From contig OZ007518.1 of assembly GCA_963931865.1 (NCBI GenBank), forward strand, positions 4,136,436 to 4,200,435: DNA of 64,000 nucleotides, given 5' to 3'. The stretch comes from Axinella damicornis. Taxonomy: Eukaryota; Porifera; Demospongiae; Axinellida; Axinellidae. Below, piece after piece: positions 5,283 through 60,300 of the stretch. Both the position numbers and the translations under genes were made by a program. The notes below the pieces were generated by a model. That model did no database searches, was not told where the DNA came from, and worked only from the letters and a program-made list of their open reading frames with translations. The first letter of the stretch is position 1, and each line of letters opens with the position of its first letter.

Positions 5283-7609
5283 CTATACGTTCCTCATCTT
5301 TATCTCTGCCCACATTCGGTCCACATCTTCCTTGGGGGTCTTCAGAAGCTCCTCTGCAAACTGCCATGAGGGGCCAGCCAGGCCACCGACATAGCTATTC
5401 CATGGCTCCCTCTGAAACTGGATGCTGGTCATCACTGCTCCAAGACAGAGCCTGGCCAGGATGATAAAGTAAAGGCACTCGAGTTCTTCCCCACTCAAGG
5501 GGAATGCTTCCAGGTAGCCTGCACAAAGCATTGGTCCGGTAACAGATAATGGACCTTTCGACTTTGACAAGAGTTTAGAAAGCACTTCTGCAAACTCAAA
5601 AATGCAACATGTTCTTGTACAGTCTCCAAAGTCTATGACACCTGCAACCTCATACTCCCCATCCGCCCGCATGCGGACAATAACATTCATCTTGTTTATG
5701 TCCATGTGAATGATACCACATTTCAATGACGCTAACTTGGGCTGCACATGTGTCTCAAACATTGTGATGATGGTCTCAGCCATTCTCTTCCTGTGTGGGT
5801 CCTCAATGGAAGCCAGGTACTTCCTCAGCTGAAGAAAATTCCTCATGTCCCAAACCGGATCCGAGAACACTCGGCTGTCAATCACAGGGTGGCTGAACTC
5901 CTATTATCAAAAGATCAGCAATAGTGAAACATAATTATGTAGATCATAACCTTATCCCCAGTGTACCCCATTTATTCTTCAGTGCATGATCTCAAAGTAG
6001 CCTCATTCCCAGGCGTTCCCACCGCCAGTATTTCATCGCTTCCAGAATGAAATACTGGCGGTGAAAGGCCTGGGAGATCTGGTCACGTGCGATGACATCA
6101 AGTAGACACATGGTAGACACACGGAGGACGGTGCCCAACGAAGAATCTCGACATCCTGTGTTGTACTGTCCGTCCAATGGCTGGATATCAGAGCGTTCGC
6201 AAGGCAGACGATCGATACCGTTCGTTGTTCACAACGCCGGCGACGGATCAACATGAAACAGGTATTTTAACGGTTGGGCACCGCCCCCCGTGTGTCTACC
6301 ATCTGTCTACCTGACGTCATCGCACGTGACCAGATCTCCGCCGTATTTCATACTGGAAGCGATGAAATACTGGCGGTGGGAACGGCCTGGGAACGAGGCT
6401 AGTCTCAAAGATCATGTGAAGTAAACCTGATGTGGGATACATGTGAGTGGGTGGTGTTGCCTAACAGCAAGTACTATATAATGGTTCGAGTGTGTTCGAC
6501 CAGTGACTTGCTGTCTATATAGAGGACTCAGGAGTTTATGTTAATGTAGTAGTCAGCATTAATGTTAGGAAAGAGAAGAGTTGACTGAAATGCCACAAGA
6601 CTGCTTCCTGACAGGAGAAAATCGTGCATCAAATTTCATTGCCCGCTGCATGGGGCCAGCTCTGTAGAGTGGCTGACTCTGCAGAGGTGTGCCTCTGTCA
6701 ATCAGCCCCCCCACATTCCCCAAACTTGACTATCTTCCAGCGCTGTACTGAGAGCCACGTTATGAAGCTGAAAATCTCACATCGCCAAATTTATTATACG
6801 ACGTGGATATTGGTCCGGCAGGAAGTACATACTTTAGGTATAGGTACCGGAAACACGCGTGCATCTAGAACCGGCCCTGGCCCTAATATACCCTAACCCA
6901 TTGCCCTACTTCGTTCCGGACCAATATCCACTTCGTATAATAATTATTATGTCTTGTACACTACGGTGTGTATTACAGCACTCAGCTTTGCCTTGTGCTG
7001 CATACGCCTCTCAACCTGTTCTCACGTAACTAATCCCGTAATGGACTACTTGCTAACTAGTACAAGAATTTCTGATCCATTCACCTGAAGCATGGCATCC
7101 ATTCTGCCAATGTAGTTCCCCACATCGTACGCCAGCTTGGGGGTGAGCTGTACACTGTCCAAAGTCTCTCCTGGAATGAACACCAATACACGAACACAAA
7201 ACTGAACTCCACTTGCATTAGCCCCAACATCACCTGCCAATAGCTGATTTTCAGAGAGCACTTCAACTTCTTCGCCTTTTCTGTTTGTGAGAGGGTATGG
7301 GCAACTGAAAGCTTTACTTTTCAGGTAATTCGTGACTGCATTAATTCCCTCAATGAGCTCATAGGGCAACGAAGAGTTGGAAAGTTTCAACACGAACTCC
7401 GTCATTGATTCTGGCCCCTCTAGACCTCTGCTAATCCCTTTTCCAACCAACTCTCCATCTAGAGTTCCCCTGAAGTAGTAATTTCTGTCCTCATAGCTGG
7501 GTAACTGCCTCACAGAGCACTCCTTCACCTCCCTGAAGGGGAACACCGCTAAGACAAGGCTAGTGGCGCAGTGGTTTTCCAGTTCAGGTGGTCGGCAGTA
7601 GTCAGCCAT
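5283..7609 (-). CDS. HYKK: Hydroxylysine kinase (APH-fold kinase), two exons
   Basis: Exon 1 is 7085-7609 and exon 2 is 5283-5900. The splice sites read CTTCAG|GTGAAT and ATAATAG|GAGTTC, phase 0, and the product is 380 residues, close to the animal family's usual length. It belongs to the aminoglycoside-phosphotransferase fold. Known animal relatives (HYKK/AGPHD1) phosphorylate 5-hydroxy-L-lysine with GTP in lysine/collagen catabolism. The catalytic loop IIHMDINKMN carries the HxD (240-242) and Asn247. The metal-binding motif VIDFGD places DFG at 265-267. The HGD form common in the family is HMD here, but the catalytic Asp is kept. The start ATG at 7609 faces the divergent gene at 7865. The 1184-bp intron contains two short inverted-repeat elements. 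A bacterial-type APH paralogue is an alternative, but the sequence resembles animal HYKK along its whole length. Confidence 0.9.
5998..6401. mobile_element. Short inverted-repeat element (TAGCCTC family) in HYKK intron
   Basis: Termini are TAGCCTCATTCCCAGGC and GCCTGGGAACGAGGCTA. Longer subterminal inverted arms include CGCCAGTATTTCATCGCTTC at the left. The flanks are ATCTCAAAG (5989-5997) and GTCTCAAAG (6402-6410), a 9-bp target duplication with one mismatch. It has no coding capacity. It is the longest member of the family seen here. Confidence 0.85.
6791..6943. mobile_element. MITE-like inverted-repeat element, second family
   Basis: The left arm starts TTATTATACGACGTGGATAT and the right arm is its near-perfect complement, giving arms of about 37 bp around a short loop. 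A left-end fragment of the same family recurs at about 24413-24470 (GTGGATATTGG followed by CCGGCAGGAAGTACATACTT). It lies in the HYKK intron and is non-coding. Confidence 0.7.
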
Positions 7610-7864
7610 GATTTTAGATTTTAGTTGGTGTTTAGGGGTGGAGCTCGGTACAGTAGCCCCACCCTAGTCTGGCGAAGCCAGACTAGCCCCACCCATCAGT
7701 GAATTGTCAATTAAAAAGGAATGTTTAGGGGTGGAGCTCGGTACAGTAGCCCCACCCATCAGTGAATTGCCAATTAAAAAGGAATGCCACACGTGGTCTG
7801 CTCAGTTTCTCGTACCGTCACTGTACCGTTGAAGTGTTTACACGTAGCTCTAAGATATGGGCCC
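7610..7864. promoter_or_regulatory. Shared divergent promoter region with a tandem duplication
   Basis: Only 255 bp separate the start codons of HYKK (minus) and the ZU5/death receptor gene (plus), so this segment should hold both promoters and 5' UTRs. It contains a direct duplication: unit 1 is 7629-7721 (93 bp) and unit 2 is 7722-7784 (63 bp). Both include GGGGTGGAGCTCGGTACAGT. The 30-bp difference is exactly a 21-bp palindromic insertion plus a 9-bp target duplication. Promoter function is inferred from position; no TATA box was assigned. Confidence 0.6.
7665..7685. mobile_element. 21-bp palindromic insertion with 9-bp target duplication
   Basis: The insert is TAGTCTGGC, then GAA, then GCCAGACTA. 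It is flanked by GCCCCACCC at 7656-7664 and again at 7686-7694. The adjacent tandem unit (7722-7784) carries the same surroundings with a single GCCCCACCC, which is an unoccupied site. It is the smallest member of the TAGYCTC...GAGRCTA-type elements in this window. Confidence 0.85.
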
Positions 7865-13800: not shown

Positions 13801-15099
13801 TGGGATCTTCCCTGGGATTTGCCCTTTGGCCACCACAAGGTGTGACCAGCTGAATATTCTGGTTGATCTCCTGGATACTTGTGGTCACATAGACCTCAAT
13901 GGGTTGACCTCAATGGGTTGACCTCAATGGGTTGACCTCAATGGGTTGACCTCAATGGGTTGACCTCAATGGGTTGACCTCAATGGGTTGACCTCAATGG
14001 GTGGTGTTGTGTCAGCAACCACAAGCAAAAGAGATTTTACTCAATTCCTATAAGGCACTTCTTAAGTTATGGAAAGTAACATACATAGTCTCATATTGGT
14101 GCAATAGGCAAGCAATCAATGAAATACACACCATTAATTGAAAGCAAGGCAATGCGTAAAGTCATCATCCACTGACTCTTTCATAATTGTGCAGTTGCTT
14201 TGACAATCGTGGGCAGTATGTAAACACAGTCTGGATCTGCTGAAGTATGCACAGTGTGAGAGCTAGTGAAACACGAGCTTGCCCTATCATGTTGTTGCCC
14301 CACCCGGAGCGAGGCTATAGCATCGTTCCCAGGTTCCCCCTACGTGTGCAGCAAGATAAGATGCCGTAAAACTTTTGTGGGTAATCCAGTCCACGATAAT
14401 ATTATGACACGAAATAATAAAGCGCGAGAATTTGACAACACGAAAATGTTAAATGTGTGTATTTGCCTTCATCCTGCAGGTTGACCAATCAGACACCCTC
14501 TACGATGCTTCACTGGGGGCAACAAGAGACCGTACTGTTTCAAACCAACAACTCCAACTAGGTTCGTACATTGCAGTACCGCCACAGTAGTTATTTATTG
14601 GCAGTAGTTGAGGCGAACCTAACTTATCCCCACATTGACCTTGCAGTAAAGTTTTTGTAAACTAAAGAAGTTACAACTAAAGCTAAAAATAGAAACAGGT
14701 TGGTAAGATCATTATCATCTATAAATAGAATTGTTTCTGTGTGTTCCAAAGTGTGAGTACTGATCAATTTGCTTGTGTGTATTGTACCTAGCCACAGGTG
14801 ACAGGTCATCTCCGACAGCTATCACTCTTCCTTCCCATGCACTTTGCAACCTCCATGCTGTCTCTCCTTTATCCACCTTCTCTATGGGACCTCCTCTTCC
14901 ACCCGTACCCCTCCCTCCAGGAATGGTGGTCCCTGTACACCTCTCCTCCAGCTGCAGGCCTCATGGATATGCGTGTGTGCACTCACAATGCAGGGTAGAC
15001 CTCTCTCTCCCTCCAGGTGTGTGCACGTCAGCTCACCTACATCAGATTCTGTATACGAACCGTTTTCCTCTCTCACTTCCTGTGTACTGTGTATTGGCT

Positions 15100-36045: not shown

Positions 36046-39000
36046 CAGCATGTCGGCAATCCACTTCCTTGCGTCTGTCTCCAGTCCAGCTACTGTTGGA
36101 AACACCTGCAAAGCCACAAGGAGGAGGAAAATATGATTGTGCAGGCACGCTACAATGCGTCTGTAACAGTAGTTTGGGACTGCTTGATGGCCACGCAAGT
36201 GGTTAAACAAGTGCAGGACTGTGGGCCTAGAGTCAAGCCCCCACTAGGAGGTAGCGTATTTCCATCACACAGCTCTACTTTAGCCTCGTTCCCAGGCTCC
36301 CCTTGTGTGCGCGGTGAATAAAAAAAATCGCATGCACGGGGGGGGGGGGGGGGGGGGGAGAGTCTGGGAACGAGACTAGTTCTACTTCTAACCAAGTGGA
36401 TGTGTAGGACTTCTGCTCTGTAACTTGAGATTCTACTTGTATGCTATGGTCATTTCACAGTCCAGTCTCCTCGTGAATTAACTGTAGCAGATATGAAATT
36501 ATACCTGCTGGTGAATTAACTGTAGCAGATATGTAATTATACCTGCTCGTGAATTACGTAACTGTAGCAGATATGTAATTATACCTGCTCGTGAATTAAC
36601 TGTAGCAGATATGTAATTACACCTGCTCGTGAATTAACTCTAGCAGATATGTAATTATACATAACTCTGGAATGGTTGTCCAATATGTAATTACACAGTA
36701 AATGTACAACAGTTACTGTGATTATGGGTTCTTTGGCAGTGCAAACATTTCACAAGAATTACCAGATGGTCAGTTTACACAGAACCAGGAGTAACAGGCA
36801 AGCATGCATTGGCAGGTGCACAGTTGATGGAGTACAGTACTTACAGGAATGCTCACTCTCCTGCCTATCTTCTGCACGAGGGCATCCACCTCATCTGTTG
36901 TAGCTCTCAGGATGGTCTGTTGGGGGGGGAGAGGGGGAGGGGGGGAGAGGGGGAAGGGAAAGGAAGGGGGAGAGGGAAAGGGGAGGAGGGGAGAGGGGGA
37001 GGAGGGGAGGGAGGAGGGGGAGGGGGAAGGGAGAGGGGGGAGGGGGAGGGGAGAGGGGGAGGGAAAGGGGGAGGGGGGAGGGGGGAGGGGGAAGGGGGAA
37101 GGGGGAAGGGGGAGTGACTTCTAATGATCTAATGCAGGACAATATGGGGTGACACACACACACACCTACGTACATATACACATCCTGTAAATGCATAAAT
37201 TATGACCTTTGACCTGCACCTTAAGCATCATCTGTAGCGCATGAATCGCACAAGTTCACCGGTCATACCTCGTGGTCTTCTATATGCTGCACCAGAGCAG
37301 CCTGGGAGTCAGCCAGCTGACGGCGATAGCTGCATGAAAGAAAAATGATGTGGGAGACAACAGGGAGTGCAAAACCCTATTAGCGGCTCGATGCGCCCTT
37401 GGTAGAAGCCTGAGTGAGTTAATGGTGGCATTGCATGGACTCATAGCCTCGTATCTGTGGGTCTTTTCACCCCAGCGTTTGTCGCTTGCAGTAATAATGC
37501 GGGGGAAGGCCTGGTAAAACACATCACATGCAGTGACGTGCTTGGACGTTGGGTGGTCGTGTGGAAATTCCTGCAAGTAAGCGAGTGTGCTACCGATCGC
37601 AGCCGTGGGCCACTGAGCAACTGTGCGGGGGATATCAGGCAGTCATGACGACATTTCTTGGGTTCAGAAACTAAATTGCCCCAGAGCTGTACAGAAAGAA
37701 TGTGCCACTCCTCCACATGTCTACCCAACGTCCATGTATGTCACTGCATGTGATGAGTTTCTTGTACTGCAGGCGACAAATGCTGGGGGTGAGAAGGCCT
37801 GGTTATGAGGCTATGGATTGCAGGCTATGTAGGTATACGATCCGTGTGCAGTGTGATACCATGTGTATATCTGTTTTAGCCTGTCAACTCAGTTACGACA
37901 ATGTATGGCTAGCAAGCCGTGCATATAGCAGGAGAGATAGTGAAAGCACTTCTCAGATGTAAATGCTTTGAATATGTGCTGTACCATATTTAGTCACCCA
38001 ACTAGCCACTCAGGTTTCACCCTGAGTGGAGAGGGCAACCACTAACATTTCATATACACCACACTGTTACACACTCTTACACACTGCTGCACACTGTTAC
38101 ACATTGTTACACACTGTTACACAATGTTACACACTCTTACACACTGCTGCACACTGTTACACATTGTTACACACTGTTACACAATGTTACACACTGTTAC
38201 ACATTGCTACACACTGTTACACACTGTTACACAATAGGCTACCAGCACTTGAACAACAGATTCTGCTCACCTTTCAATCTCCTCGCTCTGAGCAACAGCA
38301 AGTTCACTCTCAAGATCTGTGGCCTGGAATAAGCAGTGCACGTATGTCTATAACAGCTCAGAAGACACAATGTACGTATGCACATTATACGTACCATGCA
38401 CTGCACAGTGAATGAGCTACAAGTACTGTACTTGCATGTGTTTGCTTGGAAGCTATATAAGTGACTAAAGTAGTAGCCTCGTTCCCATGCGGCCTGAGAA
38501 CGAGGCTACTAAAGTGGTGGACTCTGGACCTAGATGTCCCAGGTTCTAGCCCCACCAGGAAACAGGGATATTTCAAACAGGAATATTTCGTTTTGGACTT
38601 CAAATCCATGAGTTCAGACTGATATTTGACAATATAGTTTGTTTGGGGGGGGGGGGGGGGGGGGGGGGGGGAGTGCACTATATACATGTACCTTTTCTTC
38701 ATAGAATTTCTTAGCTCTGAGATACTTTCTTCTCAGTTTTTCGGTGTCTTCCACTGATCTACAACGTGTGTGTGCAATGATGCCAACACAACCATAATGT
38801 CCCTTAGAGAGATGTTGTTATTAAAAGAACATTCCCACACTCTTCTGGTATATAGTATCCATACGTAGGTCAAGAATGTACTGTGTCTTACAAAACAACT
38901 GACTACCAGCAAAAGAGGGCCGACCTCACTTTGTAGCTCAGTTCCTGAAAAGGGTCAAAGTTTACTCAAATGAGTGCCCACCAGCCTTGTGCAAGACGGT

Positions 39001-42000
39001 GTCGGGTACTTGAGCGTAGGTGCACATGTTGATTAGACAGTGCATGCATAAAGCAAACCGAGATGTGAAACTACAACGGTATACATACACTTTGTTTCTG
39101 GTGAAAACTACACTATAATATATGTACGCTGTGTTTACTACCGTTTCAGGAAGAAAACACAGCGTAGGTAGTGGTGTCGTTTCACCTCTCAGTTTGCTTA
39201 TGATGGATCTAACTGCCGGTCTGAAAGCAATAGAAACCAAGCATTCATTGGCATGGCAACACACCAGAGGTAAGCAGTTACATTGTAGTTGTGAGCACAA
39301 GTGTATTTTTTTAGCTAGGACGATTAGTGTCATCAACCCAGTGGGAGTGATCTTGAGAGTCGGATGACATAGCGTGTTGGTTGACCAATGTATGTCTTAC
39401 ATGTATCTGTGCATGAACTTCAATTTTGAGGTTGTCACTCAGTGCCTTGAGACTTACTTGGAAAGAGCATCTCCCGTACGTATCTCCATCTCTTAACAAA
39501 CTTCTATACTTCAACTTTGCAAACCGTTTCTGATCCAAACCAGATCCCAATACGTTTCAGGGTATCATCGCACCTACATGTATGCAAACAGTGGATACCA
39601 GGCACTTCATCTTCCCGCGTGGCCTGGGTATGAGGCTAAGAGGGCTACCTCCCTGGTCACAGTGTGGCCTGGGTACGAGGCTAAGAGGGGTTTACCTCCC
39701 TTGTCACAGTGTGGCCTGGGTACGAGGCTAAGAGGGCTACCTCCCTGGTCACAGTGTGGTCTGGGTACGAGGCTAAGAGGGCTACCTCCCTGGTCACAGT
39801 GTGGTCTGGGTACGAGGCTGAGAGGGCTACCTCCCTGGTCACAGTGAGGCCTGGGTACGAGGCTAAGAGGGCTACCTCCCTGGTCACAGTGGGGCCTGGG
39901 TACGAGGCTAAGAGGGCTACCTCCCTGGTCACAGTGAGGCCTGGGTACGAGGCTAAGAGGGCTACCTCCCTGGTCACAGTGAGGCCTGGGTACGAGGCTA
40001 AGAGGGCTACCTCCCTGGTCACAGTGTGGCCTGGGCATGAGGCTAAGAGGGCTACCTCCCTGGTCACAGTGTGGTCTGGGTACGAGGCTAAGAGGGCTAC
40101 CTCCCTGGTCACAGTGTGGTCTGGGTACGAGGCTAAGAGGGCTACCTCCCTGGTCACAGTATCCTATTGCTCACCTTGAAAGGTCATCTCCCATTCTCTG
40201 GTGGTCACCTAGTGTCCTAAAATGCTGCCGTCTCACGGCACGTACTGTGGACTCCTTGTCAGCTAGCTGCAGCTGTGGACAGATGGCAAGTAAATGGAGA
40301 GTAAGGCATATGTACTGCAAGCAGACCATCTCCAGCTCCATTTCTTGCCATGACCTTTGAACTGCCCAACCGGTTCAAAGGTCACATGTGTGGCTAAAAA
40401 TGGAGCAGGAGATGGCCGGGGGACAAAGCTACATGTACATGGCAAGTAGCGGGTAAGAAAGATACCCAAGTCAGAGTAACGTTCCGCTAATGACGCTCAC
40501 CTGCAGCTGGGTCACTTGTTGCTCCAGCCGGGCAGAGGTACGCCGGTGTTTCTGCTGCATGTGCTCGACTTCCTGGCCGTGAGAGAGCTGGCAGGAAGAG
40601 CGCATCACTCGCATATGTGAACAAACATCTTACGTAACCGGCTGGTAAATTAATGATCGGTATGGTATACCAGTTTCCCGTTAACATTATGACTGGCTTT
40701 TGATGGGTCATGTTTCAAGATGCACACCACCACATCCATACACACACATGTACACACACATACAACCCACACATACATTGAATATACGTATCACACATAC
40801 ATACCCACACCCACATCACACAAACACCCATCCACATGCACACATCCCACACATACACACTCCCTCCCTCCCTCCCTCCCTCCCCTCCAGCCATCCCCTC
40901 CACCCCACCCTCTCTCCCTCCCTCCCTTCCCTCCCTCCCTCTCTCCCTCCCGCATCCCTCCCTCATTTAATGTACCTTGAGTGCCTCTACGAGGTCAGAT
41001 ATCTCATGCTCTCTCTGTGCCAATGCTTGTTGCACCTGCAGAAATGAGGTGCAAAGATGGAACATTGTATTCCAAGAAGTTCACAAACATTATCCAAACC
41101 ATCTTTTTTGTCTCGGCGCCGAAGCGCCGAGACACAGTGCTGGGTACGTATACGTCTGTCCACGTCCACGTGCTATAGGGTAGGTGTGGGTATTATGAGA
41201 CAGCACCAATTATGGGTTTCATACTTTACTACAATTTATAGACATCATCACTTTGCCTGAACATTGTCAAATGTATCCTCTACATTTGATAGAATGAATG
41301 GTGCAAAGCATTTGGTATTCATGATTTGGACAGTATGTAAAATTGTGATGAAATTTTATGGGTAGTTCTGATTGTCCTAATAAAAAATGCACTGCCAGAA
41401 TACCAACAAGCATGTTTGCATGGAAATGGTTCTAACAGAATCTTCTATGCTGGTAGGGTGTAGCTACCTAGCCAAATGATGATCAGGTATGAAACATACA
41501 GCAAAAACTGGGGTGTCTCATAATACATACCCTGTCTCATAATTGCCTCATTAACGTGTGTGATAAAATGCAGCCAAATTGCAGTACATCAACAACACTG
41601 AAACTTTGCCTACCATGGATTGTTAGTACAATGTATTATCTTGTTAAATCTATACCACAGTACAATCGCATCCTGTTGACAGCTTGTTGGTTAACTTGAA
41701 ATGGTTATGTGTCTCATAATCGGGGCGGCTACCCTATAGCTGGAGCGCATGCGCGACGGATTTACTAACTAGTAATGTGCATGTGGCCGCACCCTACTGT
41801 GCTAGAGACTGAAGACACAAACAAGATCATGTGAGATTTCAGCAAGAGAGGCTAAAACAGCAAGAAGTCGGATTACAAGGTATACGCAAGAATGACCGTC
41901 TGAGGAGCGCCAAGAATTAACGCAGACTATACAAGCTGACTGAGAAAGGCAGCAGCAAAGAAGGCCTGAACGAGAGTCCGGAACAGAGAGAGCAACGACT

Positions 42001-45000
42001 ACAAGCTGACCGAGAGAGGAGAAAGAAGGCAACAAGAAACCACTGATCAACGTAGGCAACTTGTAGCTAGCTAGATGCTCGTAGACTACATCAGTATTCC
42101 TCCATTGACAATCTAATTTAGGTCTTCTCTTCAAGCCACTTTGTCTGTGTGCTTGTGTATAATCTTACTTTTTTCAGTCCAAGTCAAAGGTATGACCAGT
42201 GCGCCTTTCATTGAAGTTTGTCCATTGTATGTGTCTATTGAATTGTGACCTATTTGCCTGTTGACACACTGTAAAGTCTTTCATCAGTATGGCAGCATGC
42301 GCCAAGATTTGATCAAATCTCAGAGCTATAAGCTAGCTACCAAGCAAATCTTGTTAAACCATCTGTAGTGTCCAACACTTGTATCAGTCTTGCAAGCAAA
42401 CCGCCGAGACAATTTTTCAAAAAAGGCGTCTTGTTAATGCAGGTAGAGTCCACGTACATGTACATATTCCAAACACCAGAACATGGGAATTCGAATAATC
42501 TGATACCAGTTACTTGCTGCTCCAAAGCACACATGCACATCACATGGATCTTTTGTAGTCTTTGCAACAAGATGTCCGCGAGTGTACCTCCCTAGTTACC
42601 CTCATTAATCCTTTTTGATCTCAGTGTAGCCAAATTTGGGCATGGCCTTGCATGGCTGATGTCTTCGTGAATCCTTGTAATCTATAGCCAAATTTGGGCA
42701 TGGTTAAACAGATCTGCTGACCCCACACTCCCGCTCTAACTAGTCTCGTGCCCAGACCCCACCCCTCGCGGGAAAGAGGGTCTGGCGACTTTGCGCAGAA
42801 GCCTCGGTCTTCATTAAAAATTCATACTTTCTAGGCAGGAATTTCAGACTGCCAATGAAATCGTAGAGAATTCAATTTTGTCTTTATTAGGAGCGAGAAG
42901 TTGTAGAAAATTCAAATTTCTCTTGCAATTACGTGTATCATTTCATGCGTAAGACTTCCGGTTCTGTCCGGTTTCAGGCGGTTAGCTGAGCTATGAATAT
43001 TCGATGAAGACCGAGAATGTTGCTGAAAGTCACCAGACGGATATTCCGTACACGTTTCCGGCTGGGCACGAGACTAGCTCTAACTTGCTGGTACATGTAG
43101 GTAGGCGTTAGAGCAATACACATGTATGTCGGATATATATGTAGTAATTTAAAATCTGATGTCTAAACACTTCACAACATCCATGGCCAAGTACAGGACA
43201 TCTGCCGTCCACGAGCGTACCTGTTCCAGCTCTCTAGTTAGTCTGTTGTTCTCCTCACTCCACTCCATCTCCTGTGACCTCAGGATGGCCAAGTTTGCCT
43301 TCGCAGTCTGCAGAGGTTACATGTAATACTGTCGGTTAGGAAGTAGACACTGGCAGTGCACAATGGGGTGCACGATGGTGCACACATAGAGTGAGAGTCT
43401 CTAGTGCTCAACTCAAGCTCCATCCCGGGTTAGAATCCCACTAAAGCCCTTGGTTTTAGTTCGCCTTAAAAAGGGAATTGACCTTTGCCTTTCCTCGAAG
43501 CTCTTTCATACAATTGATGAAGGCAATTGCATAAAAAAGCTCATACGTAGGTCACAAGCTCCGGCCTCTGACCAAAAAACAAATTGCCTACCATCCAAAC
43601 CGTTTTCATTTGGAAACAAAATCCGACAACACCCACTTCCACCTCCTGACTACCGCGAGCTTCATCCACCCGGAAAGTTATGATGCCATTTATCGTAACT
43701 CAAGCAAGTTCAGTGATGATGTCATCACCATTCCCTGTTAATGGGGTCCAGGACCCCCCCCCCCCCCCCCCCCCCCCCCATGGCTATAGCCTCGCTCCCA
43801 GGCCTTCTCACCCCAGCATTTGTCGTTAGAAGGCCTGGGAACGAGGCTACCCCATGGTAACCTTCTGCATCGCAGATCTATGTGACATTCCTGAGTTATC
43901 AAATCAGACAAAACTGAACCGTCATAGTGAATTATGTACATTGTTAGCCTCATTCCCAGGCCCAAGACGGCGAGGAGCCTGGGAACGAGGCTAGTACATT
44001 GTACAACACGTACCTGACATGCCTTTGCGAGTCTGCTGAGCTTGGCCAGCACCTTCTTGTTCTGTGCTCTGCTGGCTCGCAACTCATGCTGGGGTAAATA
44101 CAAGCGGCAAAATTAAAACTGCAACTCATGTATTCGGAGTTTCTGGGTGCTTATCACACACTGGACGCGATTTTCCATCTGCAATGCACCCTTTTAGACT
44201 AATTAGTCTGGCACAAATTGTAGATTAATTAACTCCTTGTTTTCTACCTTGGTGCTGATTTTGAACAGTTGCTGGCTATGACATGTACACAGCAGCAGTG
44301 ACCTATCTGGCTCTACCCTACACCTCTTGGAAACATCAACTTGGCATGTAGAGAGACAGCATTCCTGTTCAAATCTATCTAAGCTCAGCCTGGTGAAATT
44401 TGGCACAGCTCCAGACTTGCGTTGGCTGCAGTCAATGAACTATTCAAAACAGCTTTGACAACCACTTTTGATACATTGTTCCATTACCATGGTTATAAAC
44501 AATAATCATTACATGCCTTGTCCAAGCAAAGCTATGGGATGTAGAAGGTATCAGCCCATATTAACCTCCATGCTGGGCATTTTAGAGTGTGCACTTTACA
44601 GCCCAGGGTCCATGACCTTCCATCGTTTCCATGGATACGCTGTCTAACCCTATACTGGTGTTCAGAAGCAATTGCAGCTGTGTTCACATGCTAACAACTG
44701 TGGTTACATGAGAACAACTGCTGCAGGGATAGAGCAATGCCTTGGTGTCTGTCAGTCGTGTGTCAAGCATGTTAGCTAAGGTGTTTAGAGGCTTCATACG
44801 GACCTCAATTGTCCTTTTGGGACCTGATACAAGTTCCTTTTGCCGTCATTTTCAGCTACTTCCTATTGTCACTTCTTTGGTTCGAATCCACATCTGATCT
44901 GCACTGAACTGAGGTACACCACACAACACCTTGGGTAAGCATTCTATTATCACACTCTAGTTACCCCACGCATGTATGCACAGCAAGGGTAAGGCAATGC

Positions 45001-48000
45001 CTTCATGTCTGTCTGTGATCATCCCGTACCGCACTGAACTGAGGTACAACACACAACACCTTGGGTAAGCATTCTATTATCACACTCTAGTTACCCCGCG
45101 TGTGTATGCACAGCAAGGGTAAGGCAATGCCTTCATGTCTGTCTGTGATCATCCTGTACCGCACTGAACTGAGGTACAACACACAACACCTTGGGTAAGC
45201 ATTCGATTATCACACTCTAGCACGGGGCCACCGTTCACTTTTTTGCCGACGCAATCCCCCTTTTTGCCTTGACCTGTGAACCAACAACCAACCATGACGT
45301 CATAATGGCGTGTGCGTAGTATACGGAGGTATACGGTCCAAGAACTAAGATATACGGAGGTGCACGAGTAATGGACACGTGCAAAGAAGGCTGACGAGCA
45401 CGTTGACGATCCGAGGCCGTGGAAGAAGCGTGTCCTCCTACCAAGAAGCTCTGCAGTTGTGGGGCAGATCTCTCATCACTGAGCGTATATCACGTCAGAA
45501 AATACTTGGCTGGGTTGAAGATACAGGCAGCGAGTGGGCTGCGGGCGCCCACGTCCACCAAGAGGACGCCTGTGGTGCAGCGCCCGTGCGCAGAGCTGAA
45601 ATTGAGGTAGCGAGAGGGCCTAGGGGGGGATAGGGAGGCGGTTTTGACGGCATAAAAGGCTAGAATCCCTGCAAGTACCAAATTGCCACTGCGAGTACTT
45701 TTTTGCCTGAGGGGAGAAACAACCAACCAACTAAAGTGGCATTGCGTCTGGCAATTTGGTAACTGTGGCCCCGTGCACTCTAGTTACCCTGCGCGTGTAT
45801 GCACAGCAAGGGTAAGGCAATGCCTTCATGTCTGTCTGTGATCATCCTGTACCGCACTGAACTGAGGTACACCACACAACACCTTGGGTAAGCATTCTAG
45901 TATCACACTCTAGTTACACCGCGCGTGTATGCACAGCAAGGGTAAGGCAATGCCTTCATGTCTGTCTGTGATCATCCTGTACCGTACTGAACTGAGGTAC
46001 ACCACACAACACCTTGGGTAAGCATTCTATTATCACACTCTAGTTACCCCGCGTGTGTATGCACAGCAAGGGTAAGGCAATGCCTTCATGTCTGTCTGTT
46101 TGTGTGTCTGTAGGTAAAAAATGCTCCAAGTAGGTTAGCTAAGGCAATTATAGATGTCATACTCAATGCAAAACAATAAAACATAAAGGGACATTTCTGT
46201 ATCGATACAAGTCAAGGCCTATTATTGGTTTCCTGGCTACACCCCTTTCGAAACTGCATGTGGTAGTTAGCACGTGACTGTTCTATAGTTGTTGCATGCC
46301 GTCGACATCATCATATAGTACCATTGCTGTTCACAAGTTAGCCATCGTATTCTACTAGCATTGCGGTATGTGTCTTTCAAACACTTCTAGTTCGTACCTG
46401 TGTGGCCATGTGGTTAAAGTACTCGACTCTGGTGTGAGAGGCCACAGGTTCGAGTCCCACCAGTTGCACCTAGGAAGAGTTTTTCTCCAGGTTTTCTGGT
46501 TTCCTTTCCCAGGAGAGGCTTCAAATAAGCATTAATTACCTGCAGCTGTGTCCTCTCTGATTGGCTGGACTCCTCGGAGTGGTGCAGGTGGCTGCTCAGT
46601 CTCTCCTCGGCTAGTCTCTGCTGCTCCCTGGACGTCAGGAGCTCCTGGAGGAGAACAGACCTCTCACTGGATAAGGTGGTTCTGGTTGGCTATGGTACGC
46701 GTCTTTAAAATAGTGATGCCAAGACTTGGAGTGCTTTTCTGGCACGATGTTCACGACACAGCTTTGCCGCAAACAGGAAGGCTTCTTCCGAAGAATGCTG
46801 GCTTTGTACATACCTTAAGTTACTGAAAAACGGTGCAGCATATCACATATCGCTTTACTGAGCTTCGTTTAGGCCTTCCATAGCTTCATTTAGATCTTCC
46901 GGAGATGAATTTGTAACAGAAACCCGGACCAGTGATGGAAAGGTTCCCAAATCTTAGCATCAATTTTAAAGATGCGTACCATATGCACGAATGCAGACAG
47001 TCGTTTACACAGTACTTCTAATCTGGATTCAGTACTACCTTGGTTTCTAAGTCCAAGTAAGCCAACTTACAACTTTTCACTGTGGGTCAGCTTTAGCTAG
47101 TAAGGAACAGCCAGTGAGGTACGATAAGGTTTCCATATCAGCATTCAGATCTATATTACCATGGCAACGAGGCTACAACTACCTCTACAAATGAGCTATA
47201 TAAGCAGCTTCAAATCATGCAGCAAATTTACAAAGGATTAATTAGAATCTGGATTAGAAGTACTGTGTAAATGGAGCTCTACTACATACAACTCAAGGGC
47301 AAACACGTACACATACCTGCTTTAGCGACCTCCTTTCTGCTGCCAGGGAGTGGTTTTGACTCTGAAGCTCCAGAAGATCTCTTTGGTACTGCAGATCAGA
47401 AGCCGACCATTAGCTACCACATAAACTATTCTACTCGCAGTTCACGCACAGGAAATGTTCACTACTGGTATCTAACAATACGTAATAGACATGGTCGACA
47501 ATATTTGAGAAATGGACTGTCAAAGGACTTAAGCTCTGTAGTGTGAAAGTGCAGCTGGCGATGCTGTTGTGTACATATGCATGTGTAATTCGTGTGTATG
47601 TGTTCATGCGTATGTGTTCGTGGGTGAGCATATGTATGTATAATGTTTGTCAGCTAGGTAACCCCATTCTCGGACTGTTCTGCTCTTGTAACCAAAAAGA
47701 AATACGGAAGACGGACAGCAAGTGTGTGGGAGCATTAAGAGTACCCAGTATCACACGTCTAGCCACCACTACATGTACATTATACCTGTTGCTTGTGCTG
47801 ATCACTCTGTGCTTCAAGGTCAGTTACTTGCGACTGAAAATAGAATCACAAATACATGTAGCAGCAAAGCTATAGCAACTATTCTAGCAACTCAATATGT
47901 GCAAACAGTGTACGTAGTTAGCCTCGTACCCAGTCCATTGCCCAGCTTTTCGTCGCTTACAGTACGGAAATTTTGTTCGCGTGTTGGAGAGCTTGGGAAT

Positions 48001-50740: not shown

Positions 50741-51346
50741 AAGGGGTTAAACAAGTGCAGGACTGTGGGCCTAGAGTCAAGCCCCCACTAGGAGGTAGCG
50801 TATTTCATCACACAGTTCTACTTTAGAGCCTCGTTCCCAGGTTCCCCCCTGTGCGCGCGGTGAAGAAAAAAAATTGCATGCACGGGGGGGGGGGGGGGGG
50901 AGTCTGGGAACGAGACTAGTTCTACTTCTAACCAAGTGAATGTGTAGGACTTCTGCTCTGTAACTTGAGATTCTACTTGTATGCTATGGTCATTTCACAG
51001 TCCAGTCTCCTCGTGAATTAACTGTAGCAGATATGAAATTATACCTGCTGGTGAATTAACTGTAGCAGATATGTAATTATACCTGCTCGTGAATTACGTA
51101 ACTGTAGCAGATATGTAATTACACCTGCTCGTGAATTAACTCTAGCAGATATGTAATTATACATAACTCTGGAATGGTTGTCCAATATGTAATTACACAG
51201 TAAATGTACAACAGTTACTGTGATTATGGGTTCTTTGGCAGTGCAAACATTTCACAAGAATTACCAGATGGTCAGTTTACACAGAACCAGGAGTAACAGG
51301 CAAGCATGCATTGGCAGGTGCACAGTTGATGGAGTACAGTACTTAC

Positions 51347-54300
51347 AGGAATGCTCACTCTCCTGCCTATCTTCTGCACGAGGGCATCCACCTCATCTGT
51401 TGTAGCTCTCAGGATGGTCTGTTGGGGGGGGGGGAGAGGGGGAGGGGGGGAGAGGGGGAAGGGAAAGGAAGGGGGAGGGGGAAAGGGGAGGAGGGGAGAG
51501 GGGGAGGAGGGGAGGGAGGAGGGGGAGGGGGAAGGGAGAGGGGGGAGGGGGAGGGGAGAGGGGGAGGGAAAGGGGGAGGGGGGAGGGGGGAGGGGGAAGG
51601 GGAGTGACTTCTAATGATCTAATGCAGGACAATATGGGGTGACACACACACACACCTACGTACATATACACATCCTGTAAATGCATAAATTATGACCTTT
51701 GACCTGCACCTTAAGCATCATCTGTAGCGCATGAATCGCACAAGTTCACCGGTCATACCTCGTGGTCTTCTATATGCTGCACCAGAGCAGCCTGGGAGTC
51801 AGCCAGCTGACGGCGAAGGCTGCATGAAAGAAAAATGATGTGGGAGACAACAGGGAGTACAAAACCCTATTAGCGGCTCGATGCGCCCTTGGTAGAAGCC
51901 TGAGTGAGTTAATGGTGGCATTGCATGGACTCATAGCCTCGTATCTGTGGGTCTTTTCACCCCAGCGTTTGTCGCTTGCAGTAATAATGCGGGGGAAGGC
52001 CTGGTAAAACACATCACATGCAGTGACGTGTCTGGACGTTGGGTGGTCGTGTGGAAATTCCTGCAAGTAAGCGAGTGTGCTACCGATCGCAGCCGTGGGC
52101 CACTGAGCAACTGTGCGGGGGATATCAGGCAGTCATGACGACATTTCTTGGGTTCAGAAACTAAATTGCCCCAGAGCTGTACAGAAAGAATGTGCCACTC
52201 CTCCACATGTCTACCGAACATCCATGTATGCCACTACATGTACATGTGATGAGTTTCTCGTACTGCAGGCGACAAACGCTGGGGGTGAGAAGGCCTGGTT
52301 ATGAGGCTATGGATTGCAGGCTATGTATAGTAGGTATACGATCCGTGTGCAGTGTGATACCATGTGTATATCTGTTTTAGCCTGTCAACTCAGTTACTAC
52401 AATGTATATATATATGGCTAGCAAGCCGTGCACATGGCAGGAGAGACAGTGAAAGCACTTCTCATAACAGCAGATGTAAAAGCTTTGTGCTATACCATAT
52501 TTAGTCACCAGACTAGGCACTCAGGTTTCACTCTGAGTGGAGGGCAATGGCTAAAATTACATATACACCACACTGTTACACACTGTTACACAATGTTACA
52601 CAATGTTACACACTGTTACACATTGCTACACAATGTTACACATTGTTACACACTGTTACACAATAGGCTACCAGCACTTGAACAACAGATTCTGCTCACC
52701 TTTCAACCTCCTCGCTCTGAGCAACAGCAAGTTCACTCTCAAGAGCTGTGGCCTGGAATAAGCCGTGTACGAATGTGTATAACAGCTCAGAAGACACAAT
52801 GTACGTATGCACATTATACGTACCATGCATTGCACAGCGAAGGAGCTACAAGCACTTGCATGTGTTTGCTTGGAAGCTAAGTGACTAGAGTAGTAGCCTC
52901 GTTCCCATGCGGCCTGAGAACGAGGCTACTAAAGTGGTGGACTCTGGACCTAGATGTCCCAGGTTCTAGCCCCACCAGGAAACTTCAAACAGGAATATTT
53001 CGTTTTGGACTTCAAATCCATATGAGTTCAGACTGATATTTGACAATATAGTTTGTTTGGGGGGGGGGGGGGGGGGGGGGGGGGGAGTGCACTATATACC
53101 TTTTCTTCATAGAATCTCTTGGCTCTGAGATACTTTCTTCTCAGTTTTTCGGTGTCTTCCACTGATCTACAACGTGTGTGTGCAATGATGCCAACACAAC
53201 CATAATGTCCCTTAGAGAGATGTTGTTATTAAAAGAACATTCCCACACTCTTCTGGTAGTATCCATACGTAGGTCAAGTTTGTGTCTCACAAAACAACTG
53301 ACTACCAGCAAAAGAGGGCCGACCTCACTTTGTAGCTCAGTTCCTGAAAAGGGTCAAAGTTTACTCAAATGAGTGCCCACCAGCCTTGTGCAAGACAGCG
53401 TCGGGTACTTGAGCGTAGGTGCACATGTTGATTAGACAGTGCATGCATAAAGCAAACCGAGATGTGAAACTACAACGGTATACATACACTTTGTTTCTTG
53501 TGAAAACTACACTATATATGTAGGCTGTGTTTACTACCGTTTCAGGAAGAAAACACAGCTTAGGTAGTGGTGTCGTTTCACCTCTCAGTTTGCTTATGAT
53601 GGATCTACATTGCAACTGCCGGTCTGACAGCAATAGAAACCAAGCGTTCATTGGCATGGCAACACACCAGAGGTAAGCAGTTACATTGTAGTCGTGAGCA
53701 CAAGTGTATTTTTTTAGCTAGGACGATTAGTGTCATCAACCCAGTGGGAGTGATCTTGAGAGTCGGATGACATAGCGTGTTGGTTGACCAATGTATGTCT
53801 TACATGTATCTGTGCATGAACTTCAATTTTGAGGTTGTCACTCAGCGCCTTGAGACTTACTTGGAAAGAGCATCTCCCGTACGTATCTCCATCTCTTAAC
53901 AAACTTCTATACTTCAACTTTGCGAACCGTTTCTGATCCAAACCAGATCCCAATACGTTTCAGGGTATCATCGCACCTACATGTATGCAAACAGTGGATA
54001 CCAGGCACTTCATCTTCCCGCGTGGCCTGGGTATGAGGCTAAGAGGGCTACCTCCCTGGTCACAGTGTGGCCTGGGTACGAGGCTAAGAGGGGTTTACCT
54101 CCCTTGTCACAGTGTGGCCTGGGTACGAGGCTAAGAGGGCTACCTCCCTGGTCTCAGTGTGGTCTGGGTACGAGGCTAAGAGGGTTACCTCCCTGGTCAC
54201 AGTGTGGTCTGGGTACGAGGCTAAGAGGGCTACCTCCCTGGTCACAGTGAGGCCTGGGTACGAGGCTAAGAGGGCTACCTCCCTGGTCACAGTGAGGCCT

Positions 54301-57300
54301 GGGTACGAGGCTAAGAGGGCTACCTCCCTGGTCACAGTGTGGCCTGGGCACGAGGCTAAGAGGGCTACCTCCCTGGTCACAGTGTGGTCTGGGTACGAGG
54401 CTAAGAGGGCTACCTCCCTGGTCACAGTGTCGTCTGGGTACGAGGCTAAGAGGGCTACCTCCCTGGTCACAGTGTGGTCTGGGTACGAGGCTAAGAGGGC
54501 TACCTCCCTGGTCACAGTATCCTATTGCTCACCTTGAAAGGTCATCTCCCATTCTCTGGTGGTCACCTAGTGTCCTAAAATGCTGCCGTCTCACGGCACG
54601 TACTGTGGACTCCTTGTCAGCTAGCTGCAGCTGTGGACAGATGGCAAGTAAATGGAGAGTAAGGCATATGTACTGCAAGCAGACCATCTCCAGCTCCATT
54701 TCTTGCCATGACCTTTGAACTGCCCAACCGGTTCAAAGGTCACATGTGTGGCTAAAAATGGAGCAGGAGACGGCCGGGGGACAAAGCTACATGTACATGG
54801 CAAGTAGCGGGTGAGAAAGATACCCAAGTCAGACTAACGTTCTGCTAATGACGCTCACCTGCAGCTGGGTCACTTGCTGCTCCAGCCGGGCAGAGGTACG
54901 CCGGTGTTTCTGCTGCATGTGCTCGACTTCCTGGCCGTGAGAGAGCTGGCAGGAAGAGCGCATCACTCGCATATGTGAACAAACATCTTACGTAAACGGC
55001 TGGTAAATTAATGATCGGTATGGTATACCAGTTTCCCGCTAATATTATGACTGGCTTTTGATGGGTCATGTTTCAAGATGCACACCACCACATCCATACA
55101 CACACATGTACACACACATACAACCCACACATACATTGTATATACGTATCACACATACATACCCACACCCACATCACACAAATACCCATCCACATGCACA
55201 CATCCCACACATACACACTCCCTCCCTCCCTCCCTCCCTCCCTCCCTCCTCCCTCCTCTCTCCCTCTCTCCCTCCCTCCCTCCCTCCCCTCCAGCCATCC
55301 CCTCCACCCCTCCCTCTCTCCCTCCTCCGTCCCTCACTCCGTCTCTCCCTCCCGCATCCCTCCCTCATTTAATGTACCTTGAGTGCCTCTACGAGGTCAG
55401 ATATCTCATGCTCTCTCTGTGCCAATGCTTGTTGCACCTGCAGAAATGAGGTGCAAGGACGGAACATTGTATTCCAAGAAGTTCACAAACATTATCCAAA
55501 CCATCTTTTTTAATGCAGGTAGAGTCCAGGTACATGTACATATTCCAAACACCAGAACATGGGAAATCGAATAATCTGATACCAGTTACTTGCTGCTCCA
55601 AAGCACACATGCACATCACATGGATCTTTTGTAGTCTTTGCAACAAGATGTCCGCGAGTGTACCTCCCTAGTTACCCTCATTAATCCTTTTTGATCTCAG
55701 TGTAGCCAAATTTGGGCATGGCCTTGCATGGCTGATGTCTTCATGAATCCTTGTAATCTATAGCCAAATTTGGGCATGGTTAAACAGATCTGCTGACCCC
55801 ACACTCCCGCTCTAACTTGCTGGTACATGTAGGTAGGCGTTAGAGCAATACATATGTATGTCGGATATATATGTAGTAATTTAAAATCTGATGTCTAAAC
55901 ACTTCACAACATCCATGGCCAAGTACAGGACATCTGCCGTCCACGAGCGTACCTGTTCCAGCTCTCTAGTTAGTCTGTTGTTCTCCTCAGTCCACTGCAT
56001 CTCCTGTGACCTCAGGATAGCCAAGTTTGCCTTCGCAGTCTGCAGAGGTTACATGTAATACCGTCAGCTAGGAAGTAGACACTGGCAGTGTATAATGGGA
56101 TGCACGATGGTGCACACATAGAGTGAGAGTCTCTTGTGCTCAACTCAGGCTCTGTCATGGGTTTGAATCCCACTAAAGCCCTTGGTTTTTCTGTTGAAGG
56201 TTACATGTAGTTTGCCTTAGGGAATTGACCTTTGCCCTTCCTTTGAGCAAAGCCACTCAAGTAAGTTCAGTGATGATGTCATCACCATCCCCCCCCCCCA
56301 GGACCTGAAATGTGCAGATGTGACATTCCTGGGTTATCAAATCAAAACAAACTGAACAAAACTGAACCATCATAGTGAATGTACGTACATTGTTAGCCTC
56401 ATTCCCAGGCCCGAGACGGTGAGGAGCCTCGGAACGAGGTTAGTACATCGTACAACACGTACCTGGCATGCCTTTGCGAGTCTGCTTAGCTTGGCCAGCA
56501 CCTTCTTGTTCTGTGCTCTGCTGGCTCGTAACTCATGCTGGAGTAAATACAAGCGGCAAAATTATAACTGCAACTCATGTATTTGAGTTTCTGGGTGCTT
56601 ATCACGCACAGGACGCAATTTTCTATCTGACAAACCCTTTTAGACTAATTAGTCTGGCACGAATTGTAGATTAATTAATTAACCCCTTGTTTTCTACCTT
56701 GGTGCTGATTTTGAACAGTTGCTGGTTATGACATGTGCACAGCAGCAGTGACCTATCTAGCCTCATACCCAGGCCTTCAGAAGGCCTGGGTATGAGGCTA
56801 TGACCTATCTGACCTCTTGGACCTGTCTGAACATCAACTTGGCATGTAGAGAGACAGCATTCCTGTTCAAATCTATCTAAGCTCAGCCTGGCATCAAAGG
56901 GTGAAATTTGGCACAGCTCCAGATTTGTGTTGGCTGCAGTCAATGAACTATTCAAAACAGCTTTGACAACCACTTTTGATACATTGTTCCATTACCATGG
57001 TTATAAACAATAATCATTACATGTCTTGTCCAAGCAAAGCTATGGGATGTAGAAGGTATCAGCCCATATTAACCTCCATGCTGGGCATTTTAGAGTGTGC
57101 ACTTTACAGCCCAGGGTCCATGACCTTCCATCGTTTCCATGGATACGCTGTCTAACCCTATACTGGTGTTCAGAAGCAATTGCAGCTGTGTTCACATGCT
57201 AACAACTGTGGTTACATGAGAACAACTGCTGCAGGGATAGAGCAATGCCTTGGTGTCTGTCAGTCATGTGTCAAGCATGTTAGCTAAGGTGTTTAGAGGC

Positions 57301-60300
57301 TTCATACGGACCTCAATTGTCTTTTTGGGACCTAATACAAGTTCCTTTTGCCGTCATTTTCAGCTACTTCCTATTGTCACTTCTTTGGTTCGAATCCGCA
57401 TCTGATCTGCACTGAACTGAGGTACACCACACAATGCCTTGGATAAGCATTCTATTATCACACTCTAGTTACCCCGTGCGTGTATGCACAGCAAGGGTAA
57501 GGCAATGCCTTCATGTCTGTCTGTGGTCATCCTGTACCGCACTGAACTGAGGCACACCACACAACACCTTGGGTAAGCATTCTATTATCACACTCTAGTT
57601 ACCCCACGCGTGTATGCACAGCAAGGGTAAGGCAATGCCTTCATGTCTGTCTGTGATCATCCTGTACCACACTGAACTGAGGTACACCACACAACACCTT
57701 GGGTAAGCATTCTATTATCACACTCTAGTTACCCCGCGCGCGTGTATGCACAGCAAGGGTAAGGCAATGCCTTCATGTCTGTCTGTGATCATCCTGTACC
57801 GCACTGAACTGAGGTACAACACACAACACCTTGGGTAAGCATTCTATTATCACACTCTAGTTACCCCGCGTGTGTATGCACAGCAAGGGTAAGGCAATGC
57901 CTTCATGTCTGTCTGTGATCATCCTGTACCGCACTGAACTGAGGTACAACACACAACACCTTGGGTAAGCATTCTATTATCACACTCTAGTTACCCCGCG
58001 TGTGTATGCACAGCAAGGGTAAGGCAATGCCTTCATGTCTGTCTGTGATCATCCTGTACCGCACTGAACTGAGGCACACCACACAACACCTTGGGTAAGC
58101 ATTCTATTATCACACTCTAGTTACCCCGCGTGTGTATGCACAGCAAGGGTAAGGCAATGCCTTCATGTCTGTCTGTGATCATCCTGTACCACACTGAACT
58201 GAGGCACACCACACAACACCTTGGGTAAGCATTCTATTATCACACTCTAGTTACCCCGCGTGTGTATGCACAGCAAGGGTAAGGCAATGCCTTCATGTCC
58301 GTCTGTTCGAGTGTCTGTAGGCAAAAAACGCTCCAAGCAGGTTAGCTAAGGCATTCATACTCAATGCAAAACAATAAAACATAAAGGGACATTTCTGTAT
58401 CTGATACAAGTCAAGGCAGTTCTTTTCACCTATTTCCTATTATCGGTTTCCTGGTTACACCCCTTTTGAAATCGCAAGTGGTAGTTAGCATGCGACCTTT
58501 CTAGTTGTAGTGCATGTCGTTGACTTCGCATCGTACCATTGCAGCTGTTCACAAGTTACCCGATTGACCGGCCGGGCGGAGAGGGGCTAGCGGCTAGACT
58601 GGTGTTCTTCCAAACACTTCTAGTTCGTACCTGCAGCTGTGTCCTCTCTGACTGGCTGCACTCCTCGGAGTGGTGCAGGTGGCTGCTCAGCCTCTCCTCA
58701 GCTAGTCTCTGCTGTTCCTGGGACGTCAGGAGCTCCTGGAGGAGAACAGAACCTCTCACTGGATAAAGGAACAGCCAGTGTGGTTAAGGCTAGCACATGG
58801 CTGTGATGAGGCTTCCATATCAGCAGGTATATCAGCACCTGGTATATTACCATGGCAACAAGGCTTCAAATACCTCTACAGATGAGCTAAGCAGCTTCAA
58901 AGTCCCAATGTGGATTACAATCCAGAATAGAAGTGTACTGTGTAAACGGAACTTACAATGTAGGTCTCCACAACTAAAGGACACGCACGTACACCCACCT
59001 GCTTTAGCGACCTCCTTTCTGCTGCCAGGGAGTGCTTTTGGCTCTGTAGCTCCAGAAGATCTCTTTGGTACTGCAGATAAGAAGCCGAGTGTTACGTAGC
59101 TATCACACAAACTATTCTACTCGCAGTTCATGCACAGGAATTGGTCACTACTGGCATCTAACAATACGTAATAGACATGGTCGACAATATTTGAGAAATG
59201 GACTCTCAAAGGACTTAAGCTCTGTAGTGTGAAAGTGCAGCTGGCGATGCTGTTGTGTACATATGCATGTGTAATTCGTGTGTATGTGTTCATGCGTATG
59301 TGTTCGTGGGTGAGCATATGTATGTATAATGTTTGTCAGCTAGGTAACCCCATTCTCGGACTGTTCTGCTCTTGTAACCAAAAAGAAATACGGAAGACGG
59401 ACAGCAAGTGTGTGGGAGCATTAAGAGTACCCAGTATCACACGTCTAGCCACCACTACATGTACATTATACCTGTTGCTTGTGCTGATCACTCTGTGCTT
59501 CAAGGTCAGTTACTTGCGACTGAAAATAGAATCACAAATACATGTAGCAGCAAAGCTATAGCAACTATTCTAGCAACTCAATATGTGCAAACAGTGTACG
59601 TAGTTAGCCTCGTACCCAGTCCATTGCCCAGCTTTTTGTCGCTTACAGTACGGAAATTTTGTTCGCGTGTTGGAGAGCCTGGGAACGAGGCTAATACGTA
59701 GCATAGCTACAGATGTACATGTCTTGGATGCCGCCCCATAAACCACTACAGCCCAACAAGCAACTTCAATGGTTTAGCGTTCAGCTAGTCCACTCATCAG
59801 ACCCTCTCATGCTGACAGTCTGGGTATGCGTACCTGTGTGTCCTTTACTTGTGGAGACCTAAGCTCCGTTTACATTCAAATTCAGCCGCTGACCTCCAAT
59901 ATCTCTGCCCGACATGACGTCACTGGATTGAACCAACATCATCAGGGTATATACATAGCCAATACCACTTTGTATAAGGCTCTGGGCTTGAAATGGCCAC
60001 CTGTGCGAGATCATGTACCCTTTGTCCTTTGTTATTTTAACAGCCACTTGAAGTCCTTGACTAGGGGAGGGGGGGAAGGCTCCCACAGGAACTTGTATTA
60101 TCCACCCTGGAACACTACCCACACAAATTGGCTAGCAGAGTAGTACGCTAGGGTATACATGTATGTGTAGCCTTGTTCCCAGGCCATTCTCACCGCCAGT
60201 ATTTGATCACTTGCACTCTACGAGTGTAGACTCGTTCCCAGGCCCCCGCCCAGCTTTTCATCACTTGCAACTACACGTTCAACATTTGGTGTATATGACA

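Follow-up and report, generated by a model that had tools for sequence, protein, structure and literature searches.

The window analysed here, a 64,000-nucleotide stretch of contig OZ007518.1 of Axinella damicornis, contains two tandem units of unequal length beside a phosphotransferase-like reading frame, and the longer unit carries a short palindrome between two direct repeats. The features are as follows:

7049..7663, minus strand: open frame of a phosphotransferase-like (HYKK-like) gene, PF01636 at 17.3 bits, below the cut-off of 23.2
7629..7721, plus strand: occupied tandem unit, 93 bp
7656..7664, no strand: left copy of the 9-bp target duplication GCCCCACCC
7665..7685, plus strand: 21-bp palindrome TAGTCTGGC-GAA-GCCAGACTA of the GAA-loop tip type, most probably a collapsed AcademH-type element
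7686..7694, no strand: right copy of the 9-bp target duplication GCCCCACCC
7722..7784, plus strand: unoccupied tandem unit, 63 bp, with the target 9-mer at 7749-7757
56758..56800, plus strand: second compact palindrome, 43 bp, with tip TAGCCTCATACCCAGGCC... and flanked by the 9-bp TGACCTATC, which fits the pattern of a second family

The full 21-mer at 7665-7685 reads TAGTCTGGCGAAGCCAGACTA. The first ATG of the HYKK-like frame is located at 7609-7607, approximately 56 bp from the palindrome. Judged by profile matches, the exons beside the palindrome look like parts of a phosphotransferase and a ZU5 protein: PF01636 scored 27.6 bits in one neighbouring exon and 17.3 bits in the exon adjoining the palindrome (cut-off 23.2), and a ZU5 match in a neighbouring exon reached 20.7 bits, slightly under its cut-off of 21.

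Between unit 1 (7629-7721) and unit 2 (7722-7784) there is one substitution and a length difference of 30 bp. The original prediction held that this difference equals the palindrome plus a repeated GCCCCACCC, which was confirmed: the extra 30 bp of unit 1 consist of the 21-bp palindrome and a second GCCCCACCC. A search of the 226-Mb genome found no further copies of the 63-bp unit, so that gain and precise loss are indistinguishable from the window locus alone. Scanning the window for palindromes with flanking duplications gave five candidates, namely the present palindrome (7664), the second-family palindrome (56758), and those at 9702, 13706, and 26023, and three Markov controls gave none. 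Three of the five were set aside: candidate 9702 lies inside a tandem array, where flanks repeat in any case, and candidates 13706 and 26023, each with 9 bp and one mismatch, are possibly due to chance.

The palindrome belongs to a family that is spread across the genome. Tip matches with at most two mismatches number approximately 1,500 genome-wide (730 + 774; control, 9 + 12), and mirrored pairs were frequent among the first 100 of these matches listed. The 21-mers are the shortest family members found and the others range from 23 bp to 6,058 bp, forming a graded size series with common ends (21–64 bp, 135–912 bp, and 6,058 bp). Two intact 9-bp ends within a total of 19–49 bp were identified at 37 loci; the variable-gap control gave five per strand, so a few of these loci may be chance. 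The corresponding pattern of 50–80 bp was found at 21 loci (control, 0), and because C2:14321060 falls in both size patterns, the compact loci represent 57 distinct places. Both patterns required intact 9-bp ends, and shorter or mutated remnants are therefore undercounted.

Flanks were read at 56 of the 57 compact places (C11:8143994 was left out). The 9-bp flanks matched at 9/9 positions in 32 elements and at 8/9 or better in 39, whereas only 41 of 54,921 re-paired flanks reached 8/9; the 56 elements include paralogues of single insertions (L039/L045, L053/L058, and L080/L112). Among nine longer elements (135–6,058 bp), eight have a 9/9 target duplication and the 135-bp one lacks it. The proposal that the window palindrome is an insertion which duplicated 9 bp of its target is thus backed by flank matches throughout the genome, and the excess of flank duplications that it anticipated was strongly borne out.

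The longest member, L037 (C5:18699589-18705646, 6,058 bp), is flanked by the target duplication AGTACTAGT (9/9). It contains pieces of a RecQ/DEAD-type helicase on one strand (PF00270, 4e-09; PF00271, Helicase_C, 4.2e-09) and pieces of DUF6589 on the opposite strand (8.2e-38), in reading frames fragmented by introns or decay. A protein search with the DUF6589 piece gave 947 relatives, 120 of which were listed; SPONN_105 of uncultured Thioglobus is among the listed relatives. An alignment of 18 DUF6589 sequences revealed invariant D/E residues, including the E of HMEHLNR, and these acidic residues might correspond to those of a DDE-type transposase.

The founding paper for AcademH is reportedly Kojima 2020. 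Elements of this class generate 9- or 10-bp target duplications and encode a helicase, according to a 2023 paper (PMC10045372). The 9-bp duplications and the encoded helicase of the present family fit AcademH, and the inverted tips are a further likeness. The family differs in that its source element carries DUF6589 and in that its copies include palindromes of 21–64 bp, the smallest of which consist of two 9-bp ends around a 3-base loop. A literature search for DUF6589 tied to Academ or to transposition found no paper; a search for palindromic AcademH derivatives or elements this short found none either, which is no proof of absence. The short derivatives share inverted ends and duplications with a coding element of the same genome, as expected of MITEs or other non-autonomous derivatives.

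With its 3-base loop left free, the 21-mer has exact matches at 11 places in the 226-Mb genome, and the reversed control pattern has no match there, even at one mismatch. This is the most frequent length among the compact elements (n = 11). The loops are GAA in four cases, GCA in five (including the rearranged L008), AAA in one, and AAT in one; they also recur in long tips, which indicates that the 21-mers derive from several tip types. Flush target duplications of 8–11 bp with at most one mismatch flank 7 of the 11; the flush direct repeats include GGTAGCTAG at L001, GCCCCACCC at L004 (the window locus), CAGGCTCTA at L011, GTCTCTGAC at L012, and the 10-bp ATAGAGTGGG at L013. L003 has an offset 8-bp match only, no duplication was found in the flanks of L002 and L010, and L008 is a rearranged 21-mer.

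Paralogous empty sites reveal the polarity of the change. The flanks of ten 21-mers were joined without the insertion and, where clear, without one duplication, and were searched genome-wide; the best 40 of 1,797 candidates were scored, so paralogues of some 21-mers may be missed. L012 and L009 sit within high-copy repeats, and among the candidates scored the joint was spanned in one match by 24 copies for L012 and 18 for L009, at 93–99% identity. Six empty copies were fetched and aligned for each locus, and all 12 lack exactly 30 bp, that is 21 + 9 bp; the 21-mers of L012 and L009 therefore mark insertions. The target 9-mer of L009 in empty copies is CGCCATGAG, and both copies at L009 have an altered first base (A and T).

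Sister copies of the L009 host repeat further reveal how a 21-mer is made. A search with the 52-bp element L112 and its flanks recovered the L009 site, and four host-repeat copies were found to carry an insertion at the same site, which is 52 bp long on C13, C5, and C2 and 21 bp long on C6 (L009). The derived bases AAGAT, TATGAGG, and AGCCATGAG are common to the four inserted copies and absent from five aligned empty ones. Deletion between successive GTCTGGC repeats of the 52-mer predicts TAGTCTGGC-TGC-GCCAGACTA, which L009 matches exactly. At L009 a longer element was reduced to a 21-mer without leaving its site, through a deletion between direct repeats of 7 bp, and this is the one locus at which the 52-to-21 collapse was seen directly. 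Outside the host repeat, C6 and C13 have 5′ sequence in common, which looks repetitive itself; the 3′ end of the C6 copy is different, and at one base of the right duplication C6 agrees with C2. With such conflicting affinities the four copies do not form a clean tree. Two origins were first suggested for the 21-bp unit. This set of sister copies shows the first, an inverted-repeat element reduced by internal deletion to its smallest end product; none of the present results requires the second, a distinct insertion mechanism.

Other sister pairs display further states. L008 (C2) and L051 (C8) are the same site, with flanks identical over the compared stretch. L051 holds a 48-bp element; in L008 a 21-mer is succeeded by 17 bp that repeat the left flank in inverted orientation (one mismatch) and then by a second tip, an arrangement that would be expected from synthesis primed by the folded tip hairpin (snap-back). 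A paralogue of L011 retains only the 9-bp residue TCCAGACTA between two copies of the L011 9-mer, and a paralogue of L001 retains two imperfect 9-mer copies and one base (a 1-bp footprint). Erosion of insertions in this family seems to leave 21 bp, 9 bp, or next to nothing, a direction that we infer for the L011 and L001 pairs.

Junctions were analysed in 51 compact elements matched exactly to the tips of longer elements; the count omits L008 and the loci L053, L054, L056, and L058, whose interiors are unrelated. The overlap at the junction is at least 7 bp in 10 of the 51, nine of which are 21-mers, 1–3 bp in 16, and 0 bp in two. It is negative in 23 (filler, diverged arms, or no matching tip), or in 17 with one mismatch per arm, and such elements are not accounted for by two known tips simply being joined; the tenth 21-mer, L011, was counted as negative because the tip set had no AAA-loop tip. 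Random junctions within the outer 9–59 nt of seven longer elements gave overlaps of at least 7 bp in 0.8%. The excess of 21-mers among the junctions of 7 bp or more agrees with the prediction from microhomology, and microhomology at deletion junctions is likewise expected of products of abortive gap repair.

We consider it very probable that the window palindrome is a collapsed AcademH-type insertion and that the 21-mer is a recurrent end product of in-place collapse, a reading that builds on the family, the insertion polarity at two other 21-mers, and the single 52-to-21 collapse. An AcademH-type transposon, or a short non-autonomous derivative of it, would have inserted into one 63-bp unit, duplicated 9 bp of the target, and then collapsed in place. 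Each tip is built as a small hairpin, GTCTGGC-NNN-GCCAGAC, which gives the left and right tips two 7-bp direct repeats in common, GTCTGGC and GCCAGAC. Calculated folding energies as single-stranded DNA are -8 kcal/mol for the 21-mer and -31 kcal/mol for a 52-mer. The tips would be joined through this 7-bp microhomology, either during abortive gap repair that follows excision or when replication slips over the hairpin; everything between them would be lost, and an identical 21-bp product would remain in every case, apart from the loop, which would be that of the retained tip. The window copy itself presumably took this route, and the collapse may have started either with excision followed by abortive gap repair or with replication slippage.

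Palindromes between direct repeats are prone to precise loss, and the shorter window unit could accordingly be the derived one: the insertion would have come first, then a tandem duplication, and exact recombination between the two 9-mers would have removed the palindrome and one 9-mer from one of the units. The paralogues of two 21-mers that retain just 9 bp or 1 bp are in line with such losses, and the genome offers no outgroup copy of the 63-bp unit to decide. This history calls for one more event, however, by which the target is exactly restored, and we regard it as a minority possibility; whichever unit is derived, the 21-mer remains an inserted element.

It is also conceivable, if somewhat doubtful, that compact palindromes of approximately 45–64 bp serve as a preferred substrate for the helicase-bearing transposon, possibly travelling in hairpin or cruciform shape under the action of the helicase, and that the 21-mers are their decay. 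Movement of compact forms as units could be read from identical shapes at differing 9-bp targets (L047/L050 and L080/L111) and by one 55-bp palindrome that is present, up to strand, at L139, L152, L154, and L155 with duplications of 8–9/9; the same palindrome at L151 has a diverged end and no duplication. If this were so, the identical shapes and the 290 loci of a second tip family (see below) would reflect transposition and not recurrent collapse. With the compact palindromes it can be asked cleanly whether hairpins of approximately 50 bp can be moved by AcademH.

That the 21-mer itself is mobile, moved in trans by AcademH proteins as a 21-bp substrate, appears improbable. Such mobility would suit the eleven near-identical copies at separate sites, seven of them with clean 8–11-bp duplications, and the net gain of exactly 21 + 9 bp seen where 21-mers are inserted in high-copy repeats. 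The loops, however, come from four tip types, one 21-mer arose from a 52-mer in place and another lies within a snap-back rearrangement, and 21 bp leave scarcely any room for two protein-bound ends. A Mutator-like element (MULE) as the source is less probable still. MULEs typically make 9-bp target duplications as well, and the MULE transposase domain PF10551 has 51 matches in the genome, but none of the 51 is inside L037, which has the family tips, the 9-bp duplication, the helicase, and DUF6589. An ordinary regulatory palindrome (factor-binding site), as the distance of approximately 56 bp from a start codon might hint, or a chance repeat can hardly account for copies at unrelated places in the genome, 7 of 11 with target duplications and none for the control pattern; the flank result speaks against a regulatory origin and leaves room for a secondary regulatory use.

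Several known systems resemble parts of this picture. The mariner MITEs of aphids (PMC5490172) are non-autonomous with intact ends and microhomology at deletion breakpoints, and abortive gap repair is proposed for MITEs with such microhomology; these traits are shared by the present family, but the sizes quoted there are hundreds of bp, whereas here the end point is fixed at 21 bp and the microhomology lies inside tip hairpins. Foldback insertions of approximately 5–34 bp at breaks in yeast, as reported in PMC11724301, are short templated inverted duplications, and the 17 bp of L008 falls within their range; here a transposon tip would set the foldback, in natural paralogues and not in an assay, and the order of events is our reconstruction. 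The repetitive hairpin elements reported from sponge mitochondria (PMC2800124) are likewise short hairpin-forming repeats; the present elements differ in lying on contigs of nuclear size, with 9-bp target duplications and a coding transposon as the source.

Two 9-bp ends, a 3-base loop, and a target duplication mark the limit to which a still recognisable DNA transposon has shrunk here. The end point seems to be set by the hairpin of the tip itself; if so, "excision footprint" and "smallest element" would describe a single process from two sides. Where sister copies of a host repeat hold the same insertion in several states, the steps can be followed without experiment. Remnants of this kind may well escape repeat annotation.

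Other compact palindromes are present in this genome. The second tip family, TAGCCTCRTACCCAGGCC, has 290 compact palindromes genome-wide (control, 0), and 11 of 20 loci fetched have a duplication of at least 8/9 at the expected boundary, which suggests that compact collapse is general in this genome. An imperfect 21-bp palindrome of another tip type, TAGTCTYGCGGGGCCAGACTA, was identified at 11 loci (L014, L060, L061, L063, L064, L065, L068, L069, L073, L074, and L076); among the ten loci read, two have 9/9 duplications, one has 8/9, and the others have lower matches. A third type, the 20-bp perfect palindrome TAGTCTCGGTACCGAGACTA between GGTCACAGG and GGTCATAGG (8/9 duplication), occurs at L126 (C7:13298687-13299446), in another copy of the L009 host repeat and a few bases from the L009 site.

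Within the window, 45-bp tandem arrays at 39619-40160 and 54022-54518 have a unit that includes GGCCTGGGTACGAGGCTA, a second-family tip, and this minisatellite may have grown out of a transposon tip. A series of tandem arrays (38-bp, G-rich, 10-bp, G run, 45-bp, CTCC, 20-bp, and 130-bp) is repeated in the same order at approximately 36470-45220 and 51010-58306, suggesting a segmental duplication of 7–9 kb. The window also contains a perfect 14-bp tandem array of GACCTCAATGGGTT at 13892-14002 (7.9 copies, 100%).
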